Of a stretch of 64,000 bases of DNA, positions 33,206 through 40,291 are shown in pieces. The DNA lies in assembly GCF_000004825.1 (NCBI RefSeq), contig NW_008805068.1, positions 310,001 to 374,000 on the forward strand, written 5' to 3'. The notes under the pieces are model-generated. The model did not search any database. It was not told where the DNA came from and saw only the letters and a program-made list of their open reading frames with translations. This DNA is from Heterostelium album PN500 (lineage: Eukaryota; Evosea; Eumycetozoa; Acytosteliales; Acytosteliaceae). Position numbers and translations under genes: made by a program. Position 1 is the first letter of the stretch; each line of letters starts with the position of its first letter.

Positions 33206-35963
33206 TCAATTATTCAACAAATCATAACAATTTTTAGGATTTTCCAAAAAAAAAAAAAATACAACAACAATTGTTGACATACATATATAAAACCAATTTC
33301 ACACATATTTAAAATAATACAAAAAAATAATAATAATCAAACAACCAACCAACCCATACCATATATATATTCCAAATCAAATTATGGAAATCAAATATAA
33401 TATTGCAACATAATAATATTTCCAATTAAACCAAAATAAAAAGTGTAAAATTAACCTATTGGATTAGGTTAAATAAATTAAATCAATCAATCAATCAATC
33501 AATCAAAGATCATAATATTTCAGTATTAATTCTTTATTTAAAAAAAAAAAAAAAAAATTATAAGATCTATTTATTTTTGTACTACATAGGTGGATCATGG
33601 ACTAAACACGGCAATTGATTATTGGTTTGAAAGAGAGTCGGGTACTACAACCTTTCATGTTATTTTATAACTGACAAAATTTTTTTAAATTTAAACCTTT
33701 TATTTTTTTAAAATAAAAAATATCAAAGTATGATGTTGCCCTATGTTTTTTGGACAAACAATGTTTTTTTTATTGTCAAAAATTGTTTTTTTGATATTTT
33801 TTTTTAAATGCTTTTCTTGGTTTTGGATCACCACAAGAACTTACCCACTTTATTTTTAAAAAAACAATCGGTTTTTTATTTTTTCTGTTTCATTTTCATA
33901 TTATTTTTTTATTTTTATCTGTGTGACAATCATACTATTCATACTATTAATACTGTAAAACTATAGATATATAATATCATATACTTATTATCGCTATCAA
34001 AAGAGAGAGAGAGAGAGATAGAGATTAAATAAAATTTAATAACATAAAATATTCAAATTCATTTAACTTATTATTAATTTAAGATTTGAGTAAAACATTT
34101 TATTTTATTTTATTTTTTTGTTTATTTTTTGATTAGTTTAATTATTATAATATTATTATTTATTCTTTATTATCCACATTCTATTATTATTTTTAATAAC
34201 AAAATTCTTATTCAAATCTATATCCAAACAACATTTACCAGAACAAGATAGCAGCAGAAGTAATTATTCAATTAATTTAATATTTAAATTCGATATAATA
34301 ATCCTTTTTTATTATATTCATTCAAAATTAAATAATCTTGGTATTAAATTAAGGTAAATATCTGTTTTAAAGAAAAAATCTGATTGTTACCACCACCACA
34401 AAACAACCACAATTCAACAACACCAAACCAAACACTTTACTACGAAATCTAAAAATAACAAATAACTTCAAATGTGTAAACCAATAACGAAAGAAAGATA
34501 GAACCATTCAATATTTATAAGAATATTGAAATTCTTATTATTTTTATTATTGATAGTTTCATTCGGTTTAATCATTCATTGATTAACTGATGATCATCAG
34601 TCTATCTATCTATGTAGCTACTATTTAAGAAAATGAATTAGATAGGTGGTGTGTTTAAACTAATATAATAATATTAATAATTGGTGTGGTGTGATCATTC
34701 CTCTTGGGAATAACAATCATCTTTCAATATTGAGAATCCCAATATCTATAGAACCATCACAAGTCCACCATCAACATCATATTCCATCTATGGTTTTAAT
34801 TTATAGCACACACACACATACAATCAATTCGAGTTGTTTTCACTCACAAAACAACCACACACATTTATATACCGGTGACAGTAGTCAGTTATATATAAAC
34901 ACCCACTAGACAAATTATTATATCTTTTGTTCATCAAAAACAAACACATCACACACACACACACAATTAAATAAAAATAAATATTATATAAATAAGTTAA
35001 TCATGTAAATGTGTTGGGTTGCATACATTAAAATAGTAAAAACAAAAAAAAAAACTTTAAGTATAAATAACAACTCTAAATTTCAGAGTCATTATCAAAT
35101 CTAATTACAAATAAAATAAAGAATATATCTTATATATAAATACATATTACAGTAATAGATAACAATAAATCAAAAAAAGATATAAATAATAAACAACACA
35201 ATCAAAGCAGCAAAATATTTAAACAACAAACATTTTTTTTTTTTTTTTTTTTTTAGATTAAATCTGCAAACAAAATTTAATTTAAAAATATCATCAACTT
35301 TTACCTAATCAATTCAATCAAATCAATCATTCGTTTCAAAGGTCACTTTTCACTTTATATTTTATTTTTAAAGTAGTTTATTGATTGGTTTCGTTTCATT
35401 ACATTTGCCTATGTTTTAATAATTATTACAACATTTGTAAAAAACTAACAAAAAATAAATAAAATCTTTATATATATATATATAGTTAAATATTATTTTT
35501 ATATAGTTTACTAAATAATATAATTTTGTTGTTCATATATATATTCAAATATCATATATTTCCCTCCAAACACACGAATTACAATATATTTGTTACCATT
35601 AACAACCACACCCACAAAAACTTACACAAATCAATCACACAACTTTTTTTATTTTTATCAATCAAGTTCAACTTTCATCAAATCTATCAGATATAATCTA
35701 ATATTTGATTGTCTCATTTTCTCATTTCCTTTCATTTGTTAGGAACTTTTATTCAATAATAATCTAAATCAATCACACATTTATTTATTTTAAAACCTGT
35801 ACAATATTTCTCTTATTAATATCATTATAATTATAAATTCATATTCATATTTCTATAGCGTTTAAGTCTATTTTAAAAGAAAAAAACAGAACACATAAAT
35901 CAATTTAAATTTAAATTAATCAAAAGGAAAAAGATCAAATCAAATCAAAATCAAATCAAAATT
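33206..35963. other. 2.8-kb gene-free region upstream of the lipase gene
   Basis: No coding region seen. Contains an AATC tetranucleotide run (33481-33505), A-run (33540-33557), GA run (34002-34018), CA runs (34807-34818, 34950-34963), and a 24-base T tract ending in AG (35233-35256) that resembles a splice acceptor. The last 100 bp before the lipase ATG contain repeated AAATCAAATC. A long, possibly spliced leader for the lipase gene is conceivable. Confidence 0.5.
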
Positions 35964-37367
35964 ATGTATGCTGTATTACGTATGGTTAAATTCTTATGGA
36001 GATGGAGTCAACTCTATTTGACTTTGATGATCCTTTTGGCGGAAAGAGTGATTCGCTCGATTATCTCAGTGGTTTTGAGTGTCATTCCGTTCTCCTCTTA
36101 TTTGGAATCGTTGGCAACTCTTCAGAAGAGTAGTGATAGCTACACCGAGTACGAGAAGGACTTGGAGAGAGACGCAATTGAAATGATCACCAGTCGTGGT
36201 TATCCAGTGGAGGAGCATTTCGTTACTACTCCCGATGGTTTCGTGCTCGGTCTGCACAGAATCACCGGACCAAGAGCATTCACCTCGCCACTCGACAGTC
36301 CACCAACATCGCCACGCGATCTCGGTGTCTCGGGCGGTGAACTCTTTGCACCCACTGGAAAACCGGCTGTCTTGATCATGCACGGATTCATGCAAACCTC
36401 TGAAGCATGGCTGTGCCGTTCCAACCCAAACAACAGTCTGCCATTCATCCTGGCCGACGCCGGATTCGACGTCTGGCTCGGAAACAATCGTGGCAACAAA
36501 TATTCGTTCAAACACACCACCTACACACCGGATCAAGAGAAATTCTGGAATTGGTCGTTGGATGAGCTGGTTCGTTACGACTTGCCGAGCATGGTCAATT
36601 TCATCACCAATCGCACCAAACTTCAATCGATCTCCTACATCGGTTTCTCGCAGGGAACCGCTCAGGGTTGGGCAGCTCTCAGCACCAACACCGACCTGGC
36701 TGCAAAGATCAACTTGTTCGTAGCACTGGCACCGGTCAGCACTGTCAAGGGATTCAGCAATCCCATGATCGACTCGCTTGCCAGATCACGTCCAGACTTT
36801 ATCTTTTTGTTGTTTGGCAAGAAGTCGATGTTGCCATCGACCATCTTCTGGAGAAACTTGCTACCCAAGCAGTTCTTTGTGTCGATGATCGACGCCTCTG
36901 TCCGTTTCCTCTTTGGATGGTCCACCATCAATTTGGGTGAAGACGAGAAGGCGATGCTCTACAGCCACATCTTCTCGTACACCAGTGTCAAGTCGGTGGT
37001 TCACTGGTTCCAGATCATCCAGACCAATCGTTTCCAGATGTTCGATGACATGCTCCTCGGAATCACACCAAACGAAAGCTCAAATCAGCCACACAGATAT
37101 CACGGACGTGTCATTCCCGCTTACCATCCAGGTCAGATCCTCACCAAATGCGCATTGTTCTATGGTGGTGCCGACACATTGCCAAACACCAAAGCACTGC
37201 TCAGTCACCTACCAAGAGACAAAGTGGTGATGGTCCACGAAGAGGAATCATACGAACATCTCGACTTTATGTGGGGCAAAGATGCAAACAAAAAGATTTT
37301 CTCAAAGATTGTTCACCTCTTGAAATCTACAAACAAAACAAATATAGAATCAGATTATGATGAATAA
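35964..37367 (+). CDS. Acid lipase / steryl ester hydrolase family (alpha/beta hydrolase)
   Basis: Intronless, 467 aa. N-terminal hydrophobic stretch (residues 1-45, LYLTLMILLAERVIRSIISV) looks like a membrane anchor or hairpin rather than a cleaved signal. The lipase-associated N-terminal region (GYPVEEHFVTTPDGFVLGLHRI) and the oxyanion HGF at 140-142 are followed by GNNRGN, the nucleophile elbow GFSQGT (Ser229), and toward the end GGADTL (Asp) and YEHLDFMWG (His). These match lysosomal acid lipase and yeast Tgl1/Yeh steryl ester hydrolases; the membrane segment favours the Tgl1/Yeh type on lipid droplets or membranes. A short Ser/Pro insert sits before the HGF motif. Confidence 0.88.
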   Translation: MYAVLRMVKFLWRWSQLYLTLMILLAERVIRSIISVVLSVIPFSSYLESLATLQKSSDSYTEYEKDLERDAIEMITSRGYPVEEHFVTTPDGFVLGLHRITGPRAFTSPLDSPPTSPRDLGVSGGELFAPTGKPAVLIMHGFMQTSEAWLCRSNPNNSLPFILADAGFDVWLGNNRGNKYSFKHTTYTPDQEKFWNWSLDELVRYDLPSMVNFITNRTKLQSISYIGFSQGTAQGWAALSTNTDLAAKINLFVALAPVSTVKGFSNPMIDSLARSRPDFIFLLFGKKSMLPSTIFWRNLLPKQFFVSMIDASVRFLFGWSTINLGEDEKAMLYSHIFSYTSVKSVVHWFQIIQTNRFQMFDDMLLGITPNESSNQPHRYHGRVIPAYHPGQILTKCALFYGGADTLPNTKALLSHLPRDKVVMVHEEESYEHLDFMWGKDANKKIFSKIVHLLKSTNKTNIESDYDE

Positions 37368-37987: not shown

Positions 37988-38550
37988 ATGAAAGTTAATT
38001 GTCCGTCTGGTAACACTATTGAAGTGGAAATCAATGAAAATGACTCTGTTTTAGATTTAAAAGAGAAAATTCATGATAAAACAGGTACACCTGCAGTACA
38101 TCAACAAGTAGGTATTAGTAAAAAATTTTTTTATAGAATATAAATTAATTCATTTATTCTCCTTAGCTAAAAATTGTTGGTAAAAAAACATTATCAAAGA
38201 GACATGATAAAAAGAAAATATCCTCTCTTCATTTAAACAATGAGTCCATGGTATGTTTTGATATTTCTATTTTAAAATATCTTTTATTAATACTTTATAT
38301 AGCTTAATATGTCCTATGTTCTAGCAGGAGGATGTGGTGTAGGATGTGATCTTTGTGGATGTGGAGGTGAATGTTGTGTAAGTAAAAGACTTCAAAAGTT
38401 AAAATATCTCAATGTCCACTAATACATTTTTTATTTTAGTGTAATATTTTATAGAGTATCAATTTACAATCAAATCTATAGAATATCGATCATAGAGAAT
38501 TAAAAGAGTTTTATCAAGAAACAATATTGAATAATTATAGTTGGATTTAA
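37988..38550 (+). CDS. Ubiquitin-like protein with Cys-rich C-terminal tail, about 97 or 115 aa
   Basis: Exons 37988-38107, 38167-38250 and 38303-38377 all end in phase 0 with GT..AG introns of about 50-60 nt. The first 78 residues align with ubiquitin: MKVNCPSGNTIEVEI, VLDLKEKIHDKTGTP, and NNESMLNMSYVLAGG in place of KESTLHLVLRLRGG. After the di-glycine comes CGVGCDLCGCGGECC. The 3' end has two options. A strong acceptor (TTATTTTAG, 38439) gives a 15-nt last exon encoding CNIL and stop at 38454, a CaaX-like ending (97 aa). A later acceptor (AATCTATAG, 38481) gives NIDHRELKEFYQETILNNYS and stop at 38550 (115 aa). Both keep the frame. Function unknown; a membrane-anchored or metal-binding ubiquitin-fold protein is possible. 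Confidence 0.65.
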
Positions 38551-38737: not shown

Positions 38738-40291
38738 ATGCTCACGAGAATAACAAGCAACAAGGTTGTTGCAAATAAACCTATATATCTATCATTATCA
38801 TCGTTAATAAGTAATTGTAGTATTATTAAAAGTAAAAGTTATCTATTTAATTATAGTATAAATAATCATGATGATAAACTATTAAATATATACAAGTATA
38901 GTAGTAGTAGTAATTATAGTGGTTATCAACTAGCTGTTGATTCTTCAAACAACAGTGACAACTATGATAATCAACAACAACAACAATCAATACCTACTCA
39001 AATAGATATAATTCAAAAAGAAAAGAAAAAAAGAACAAGAAGAACTAAAGCTGAATTATTACTGGAGAGAAGTTCTTTAGAAGGAACAGCAGCAGCAGCA
39101 ACAACAACAACAACAACAGGAATAGCAGAAGCAGTTAGTTCACCAAAGAAAAGAACCAGAAAATCGAAATCTTTGAAAACAACAGAACTTGAAGAGATTT
39201 ATCCAATTAAGCAACCAGCATCGTTTCCAACCATTCAATTACCTTCTACACCTCTGAGGATTAGGATAGTCGATAATAATAATAATAATAATGAATCTAC
39301 AAAGAATGATATGTCGTATATCGGTGTCGATGAGGCAGGTAAGGGTGCTGTTCTCGGCCCACTGGTGATTGCAGCGGTCTCGTTGGACTCTGCCGCCGAG
39401 CAATATCTAAAGGCAGCCGGTGTCAAAGACAGCAAGAAACTATCGGCTCAACGACGAGAGGAACTCTACGACATCATCAAGGAGCGCGCACTCTACACCA
39501 CCATCTACATTCTCGAGGCACGTGACATCGACATACGCAGAAAGACACAAACACTCAACAAAATAGAATCCGATATCTTCTTGGAACTCATTCAACGTTC
39601 TTTAAATCATTTGAAATCAAATCCACAAGAATTCATAGAAGAAGTTGAAGAAAATAATAATATAGTAGTAGGAGGAGAACAATTCAATAATAATAGTAAT
39701 AAACCAAAGAAATATAAAATACAATTAGATAGTTTGGAGAGTAATACAGGTAAATTTTCATTGCCTTTCAGAGATGCATTTCCAGCACCAGAACATACTG
39801 TGATCTGTGAGAATCAGGCGGATTCGAAATATGTGTCGACGGGTGCAGCTTCGATCATCGCCAAAGTGGAGAGAGATCGTGCAATAGCGGCACTCGAGAA
39901 ATCTGTAAATACACCAGTTGGTTGTGGTTACCCGAGTGATGCTACCACCCTAACATTTATCGAATCTTACTATCAGAGAAATGGAAACGATCATCCAGAT
40001 GTAAGATTATCATGGAAAACACTTACCAATAAAAGAGGTATAAACAATAACAACAACAATATCAATAATATAAATATCAATAATAATAATAATAATATTT
40101 TAACAACACAATTACAATCAAATATATCATCAATAGCATCACAGTTAGAAACAGCAACAAACAATGATCAACAATCATCGACACAAGACCAACTAACTAT
40201 TTTACAGAATATTCAACAAGACTTAAGTGCTCTAACTAAATCTGTACAATCTTTTATTAATTTATTGAAAAATAACAAAAACAATAAATAA
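38738..40291 (+). CDS. Ribonuclease HII with low-complexity extensions
   Basis: Intronless, 517 aa from the ATG at 38738. The core starts at about residue 195: GVDEAGKGAVLGPLVIAAV gives the first catalytic Asp-Glu pair (Asp198), then VKDSKKLSAQRRE, KIQLDSL (third acid) and ENQADSKYVSTGAASIIAKVE (fourth Asp), followed by GCGYPSD, the archaeal/eukaryotic-type RNase H2 catalytic signature. It removes RNA from RNA-DNA hybrids. The family is normally 210-300 aa; here there is a 190-residue N-terminal extension with a basic start (MLTRITSNKVVANK) that could target mitochondria, an Asn/Glu insert before the third acid, and an Asn-rich tail with a coiled coil. GC peaks over the core motifs only. Confidence 0.88.
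   Translation: MLTRITSNKVVANKPIYLSLSSLISNCSIIKSKSYLFNYSINNHDDKLLNIYKYSSSSNYSGYQLAVDSSNNSDNYDNQQQQQSIPTQIDIIQKEKKKRTRRTKAELLLERSSLEGTAAAATTTTTTGIAEAVSSPKKRTRKSKSLKTTELEEIYPIKQPASFPTIQLPSTPLRIRIVDNNNNNNESTKNDMSYIGVDEAGKGAVLGPLVIAAVSLDSAAEQYLKAAGVKDSKKLSAQRREELYDIIKERALYTTIYILEARDIDIRRKTQTLNKIESDIFLELIQRSLNHLKSNPQEFIEEVEENNNIVVGGEQFNNNSNKPKKYKIQLDSLESNTGKFSLPFRDAFPAPEHTVICENQADSKYVSTGAASIIAKVERDRAIAALEKSVNTPVGCGYPSDATTLTFIESYYQRNGNDHPDVRLSWKTLTNKRGINNNNNNINNININNNNNNILTTQLQSNISSIASQLETATNNDQQSSTQDQLTILQNIQQDLSALTKSVQSFINLLKNNKNNK

Follow-up and report, generated by a model that had tools for sequence, protein, structure and literature searches.

Small ubiquitin-like proteins of dictyostelids and Planoprotostelium with a conserved Gly-Gly-Cys tail and a CaaX-type end

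Results

The window, i.e., the whole stretch of 64,000 nucleotides of Heterostelium album DNA analyzed here, contains a short gene with four small exons. Splicing these exons as an earlier note on this DNA had proposed keeps all of them in phase 0 and yields a protein of 97 residues. The features of the gene are as follows.

37988..38107, plus strand: exon 1, residues 1-40, first half of the ubiquitin fold; 120 nt at both paralogous loci too
38108..38166, plus strand: intron 1, 59 nt, GTAGGT...CTTAG
38167..38250, plus strand: exon 2, residues 41-68, including a lysine-rich loop
38251..38302, plus strand: intron 2, 52 nt, GTATGT...TATAG
38303..38377, plus strand: exon 3, residues 69-93, last strand of the fold, Gly-Gly (GG) and Cys/Gly block
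38327..38332, plus strand: Gly-Gly codons, residues 77-78, aligned with ubiquitin G75-G76
38333..38377, plus strand: Cys/Gly block CGVGCDLCGCGGECC, 15 residues directly after GG
38378..38439, plus strand: intron 3, 62 nt, GTAAGT...TTTTAG; GTAAGT donor at both paralogous loci too
38440..38454, plus strand: exon 4, 15 nt, CNIL CaaX box and TAG stop

The C-terminal order of the protein is AGG-CGVGCDLCGCGGECC-CNIL-stop. The six cysteines reported earlier for CGVGCDLCGCGGECC were counted correctly, the seventh being that of the CaaX box. Protein database searches did not bring up the window protein itself, which therefore seems to be unannotated in the protein sources searched. The upstream gene (35877-37367, plus strand) resembles a lipase-like hydrolase by eye, with no NCBIfam match. 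The next gene downstream (38738-40291, plus strand) codes for ribonuclease HII (TIGR00729, 156.6 bits versus 123.3) and has long low-complexity stretches before, inside and behind the domain.

A search of the genome (32.9 Mb, 39 contigs) with the spliced window protein detected two further loci approximately 5.6 kb apart on another contig, C2. They encode 100 and 97 residues on exons of 120/84/84/15 and 120/84/75/15 nt, all in phase 0, and their last exons specify CSIM and CSLM. At all three loci in the genome, the CaaX box thus stands alone on a phase-0 exon of 15 nt. The changes separating the three loci favor silent sites, with dN of 0.267 and dS of 1.166 (NG86) between the window gene and the first C2 locus, 0.300 and 0.955 between the window gene and the second, and 0.039 and 0.178 between the two C2 loci. 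An open reading frame of 1009 residues lies between the latter on the other strand (L011:3355-6384, minus strand); by eye, it resembles a secreted protein of the cell surface and has Cys patterns of the EGF-like type.

We also searched the genome for the peptide pattern GCD[x]CG with a hydrophobic-type middle codon, which gave five matches, three of them the family loci, versus two for the reversed control pattern. The other two matches (on C12 and C30) were rejected as family members, as their frames contain stops and no ubiquitin fold. Genome searches with two family proteins returned 35 and 36 matches, and those at 33-36% identity were presumed, as a group, to be ubiquitin genes.

Dictyostelids provide the nearest protein relatives of the window gene. 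The earlier note had raised the question of whether related genomes lack it, and they do not: the family profile finds 16 database proteins in other species, with E values from 4.0e-41 to 1.3e-11; nine of these proteins are among the 12 aligned query sequences, which raises their scores. Twelve of them are from dictyostelids (Cavenderia fasciculata, one; Tieghemostelium lacteum, two; Dictyostelium species, eight, among them D. discoideum DDB_G0293906; Polysphondylium violaceum, one), and four are from the variosean Planoprotostelium fungivorum. Where named, they are labeled as hypothetical or ubiquitin-like domain-containing proteins. Together with the three loci of this genome, they make up a family set of 19 sequences. 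In a tree of the family, the four Planoprotostelium sequences are on one side of a branch with 100/100 support, and 7 of the 16 inner branches are unresolved. For the tree alone, we trimmed the N-terminal extensions of two Planoprotostelium rows. These extensions, of approximately 58 and 91 residues ahead of the ubiquitin fold in P0015 and P0016, respectively, may be gene-model errors.

Splicing, the paralogous loci and the homologues all bear out the proposed four-exon gene with its CNIL end on a separate 15-nt exon, and the last two rule out a set of spurious exons. Judging by its sequence, the gene is genuine and conserved among these amoebae, and its product is a small ubiquitin-like protein. 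Among the sources searched, we found the family only in Dictyostelia and Planoprotostelium, by a search that depends on shared five-residue words and that remoter relatives may escape. No relative was confirmed in the viral contigs and prokaryote genomes searched. Searches of the open-licence PMC literature turned up no description of the family, which is undescribed as far as these searches reach.

The ubiquitin fold claimed for the window protein was supported by a Pfam match to PF00240 over residues 2-71 (E value 1.2e-9, 38.2 bits versus a cut-off of 25.4) and by the model of the homologue P0001. PF00240 matches 18 of the 19 family sequences, and the pairwise alignment of the window protein with ubiquitin extends through the GG. 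The lysine-rich loop of exon 2 is missing in all four Planoprotostelium sequences of the 19-sequence alignment. In the models of P0001 and P0009, the ubiquitin fold is followed by an unstructured tail, with pLDDT values below 50 from the GG region onward, as would be expected for a flexible tether. A structure search with the P0001 model placed ubiquitin and NEDD8 among the nearest, among the matches listed; the membrane-anchored ubiquitin-fold proteins MUB/UBL3 were not among the 50 structures listed, which excludes nothing. The column of ubiquitin Ile44, the center of the usual binding patch, is hydrophobic in just 3 of the 19 sequences (L, L or I) and non-hydrophobic in 16, so that partners or receptors of the ordinary ubiquitin type are unlikely in dictyostelids. 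An isoleucine-centered patch is also what binds the E2 in MUB/UBL3; the counts given here refer to the ubiquitin column.

PF13881 (Rad60-SLD_2), presumably the Pfam model to which MUB/UBL3 belong, matched none of the 19 family sequences at E values up to 10, with the HMMER filters on and without a MUB positive control. A search of this genome for UBL3/MUB with the same model gave two matches, both under the cut-off, and as the model gave no hits in any of 14 control genomes, absence from the genome is not established. A ubiquitin-like stretch at L009:1285-1827 (minus strand) has a weak PF13881 match (18.4 bits, under the cut-off), and its frame as read has no CaaX end and another kind of C terminus.

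The claims that a Cys block directly follows the GG and that the protein has a CaaX-type end held throughout the family: the fold ends in GG-Cys and the protein in C-x-C-a-a-X in all 19 sequences. Counted from the printed tails, the last residue is L in seven, M in seven, Q in four and I in one, and the residue before it is I in 17, L in one and V in one. The tails contain five to nine cysteines each, and the spacing C-x3-C-x2-C-x5-C-x-CaaX is kept in 18 of 19, the exception being P0013. Next to the GG, the ubiquitin L73 column is L, M or I in every sequence, and the R74 column is variable (A, E, H, N, D, Y).

Between dictyostelids and Planoprotostelium (60 pairs), the mean identity is 24% before the GG and 65% after it, a comparison to be taken with caution, as the homologue profile included the tail and favors sequences with a good tail. 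The post-GG value stays at 52% for the same pairs without the columns that are Cys in both, indicating that the tail glycines are kept as well. Dictyostelid pairs average 48% before and 71% after the GG (105 pairs), and Planoprotostelium pairs show no difference (71% and 67%, six pairs). That the tail is better conserved than the fold suggests that the protein does its work through the tail. A Pfam scan of three tails alone, short queries of 24-28 residues with little power, gave no matches, and an NCBIfam scan of P0001 and P0005 matched no family.

The earlier note had proposed two acceptors for the last exon. Spliced in silico, the second (exon start 38482) does lead to a tail of 22 residues, but the alternative soluble isoform that was to arise through it has no match in the family or the paralogues. 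This ending is absent from all 18 other family sequences, and none of the acceptors listed at the two C2 loci gives an end of that type, which together rule it out as a conserved feature. The second acceptor also has a weaker pyrimidine tract, with 6 pyrimidines in 12 positions versus 10 in 12 at the acceptor for the exon starting at 38440. CaaX conservation in 19 of 19 sequences supports CNIL as the end of the gene. Retention of the third intron does not read VSKRLQ-stop, as had been stated, but VSKRLQKLKYLNVH-stop.

Discussion

We favor, with some reserve, a membrane-anchored ubiquitin-like protein that carries a prenyl group and functions in the manner of MUB/UBL3. The ubiquitin-type domain would face the cytosol, and the tail would tie it to a membrane. 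The CaaX Cys may be prenylated, with geranylgeranyl favored for the L and I ends and farnesyl for M and Q; the final three residues would then be cut away and the new end methylated. The Cys two residues ahead of the CaaX Cys, and perhaps others, may be palmitoylated, which would add a second and reversible attachment. The fixed Cys/Gly spacing might form a recognition or thiol element beside the membrane. As its biological role, the anchored domain would recruit or restrain a partner there, e.g., a ubiquitin-pathway enzyme or cargo. This reading is supported by the CaaX-type end and C-x-CaaX in 19 of 19 sequences, by the separate 15-nt exon at three of three loci, by the modeled fold with its unstructured tail, and by the preference for silent changes among the loci.

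Nevertheless, the tail is more conserved than a lipid anchor requires. An anchor alone needs neither a fixed Gly/Cys spacing (18/19) nor an invariant GG, and we therefore keep two rivals, a precursor processed at the GG and a metal or redox site. A ubiquitin-like protease might cut a lipid-tethered precursor after the GG, freeing a ubiquitin-like protein with a conjugatable GG end and leaving a prenylated Cys-rich peptide in the membrane, or else freeing that peptide as the active product. The GG and the next Cys, invariant in 19 of 19 sequences despite only 24% fold identity between dictyostelids and Planoprotostelium, speak for such processing, as do the L73 column and the closeness to ubiquitin and NEDD8 among the structure matches listed; yet the R74 column varies, a discarded peptide would need few cysteines, and the GG may be just the first part of a Gly-rich tail motif, because the part after it is more conserved than the part before it. 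We consider this processing unlikely. There is a similarly small chance that the protein combines the roles of GG modifier and CaaX protein, i.e., that it is a membrane-tethered precursor whose tail motif, more conserved than the fold, controls release after the GG or whose tail peptide is the product. As GG-Cys is invariant, the peptide left by any cleavage would begin with Cys and have a prenylated C terminus. An N-to-S acyl shift at GG-Cys is conceivable.

The tail could instead be a membrane-held metal-thiolate or redox site (zinc, copper or iron-sulfur), with the ubiquitin fold as its carrier or read-out. Four non-CaaX cysteines in fixed C-x3-C-x2-C-x5-C spacing (18/19), the total of five to nine per tail and the conserved glycines (52% tail identity without columns Cys in both) are in keeping with metal binding, to which we give a low probability: P0013 breaks the spacing, the three tails have no Pfam match (short queries, little power), and the tail is unstructured in the P0001 and P0009 models. 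AlphaFold2 does not place metals in its models. Least probable of all is a toggle between the anchored form and a soluble, CaaX-less one through alternative splicing or through intron 3 being retained. The gene layout would lend itself to such a switch, with the CaaX box alone on its 15-nt exon at three of three loci and intron 3 retention leading to early stops after VSKRLQKLKYLNVH, VSS and VSR with loss of the box at each; however, no alternative end is conserved, and the second acceptor of the window gene is unmatched at the paralogous loci and in the 18 other sequences.

Returning to the anchored protein, the family may represent a novel means of membrane attachment for a ubiquitin-like protein. 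If its tail is lipidated, membrane-tethered ubiquitin-like proteins would extend to Amoebozoa and include a tail of another design. DDB_G0293906 of D. discoideum offers a tractable model in which to address the GG, the Cys block and the CaaX box one at a time.

Compared with known systems, the family shares with the type-1 ubiquitin-like modifiers a fold ending in GG, which in those proteins occurs with or without a removable extension. It differs from ubiquitin, NEDD8 and their short-extension precursors in its patch residues, in its identity of approximately 33% to ubiquitin genes of the same genome and in its conserved, CaaX-ended extension. The heavy-metal-associated isoprenylated plant proteins (HIPPs) combine an HMA domain with a CaaX anchor. 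They resemble the amoeba family in joining a possible metal-binding element to such an anchor, whereas the latter has, in place of the HMA domain, a ubiquitin fold with a short Cys/Gly tail.

MUB/UBL3 of plants, animals and some fungi have in common with the amoeba family a small ubiquitin fold, an unstructured C-terminal tether and a CaaX end, according to excerpts of PMC4996978 and PMC10511055. Both also have an extra Cys shortly ahead of the CaaX box: UBL3 orthologues carry one, as C-X-CAAX in most plants and some fungi (PMC10511055), and C-x-CaaX is found in 19 of 19 amoeba sequences. The excerpts of PMC10511055 call the CAAX sequence of UBL3 unique among ubiquitin-like proteins and name green algae and fungi as sources of unicellular UBL3 candidates; a text search of that paper gave no mention of amoebae, Planoprotostelium, Cavenderia or Dictyostelium. 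The earlier note had stated that the membrane-anchored ubiquitin-fold proteins with CaaX ends of plants and animals are not known to have such a Cys block right after a GG, and this agrees with both sources, in whose excerpts the MUB/UBL3 fold does not end in GG (PMC4996978, PMC10511055) and the UBL3 C-terminal region is without glycine (PMC10511055). All 19 sequences of the amoeba family have the GG, and their tail is a conserved Cys/Gly motif starting right at it. The family is most likely MUB/UBL3-like in working design, but because of the GG and the 0 of 19 matches to PF13881, we do not place it in MUB/UBL3. It unites a CaaX end and a GG, the feature whose lack, in the excerpts seen, sets the described MUB/UBL3 apart from the GG modifiers.
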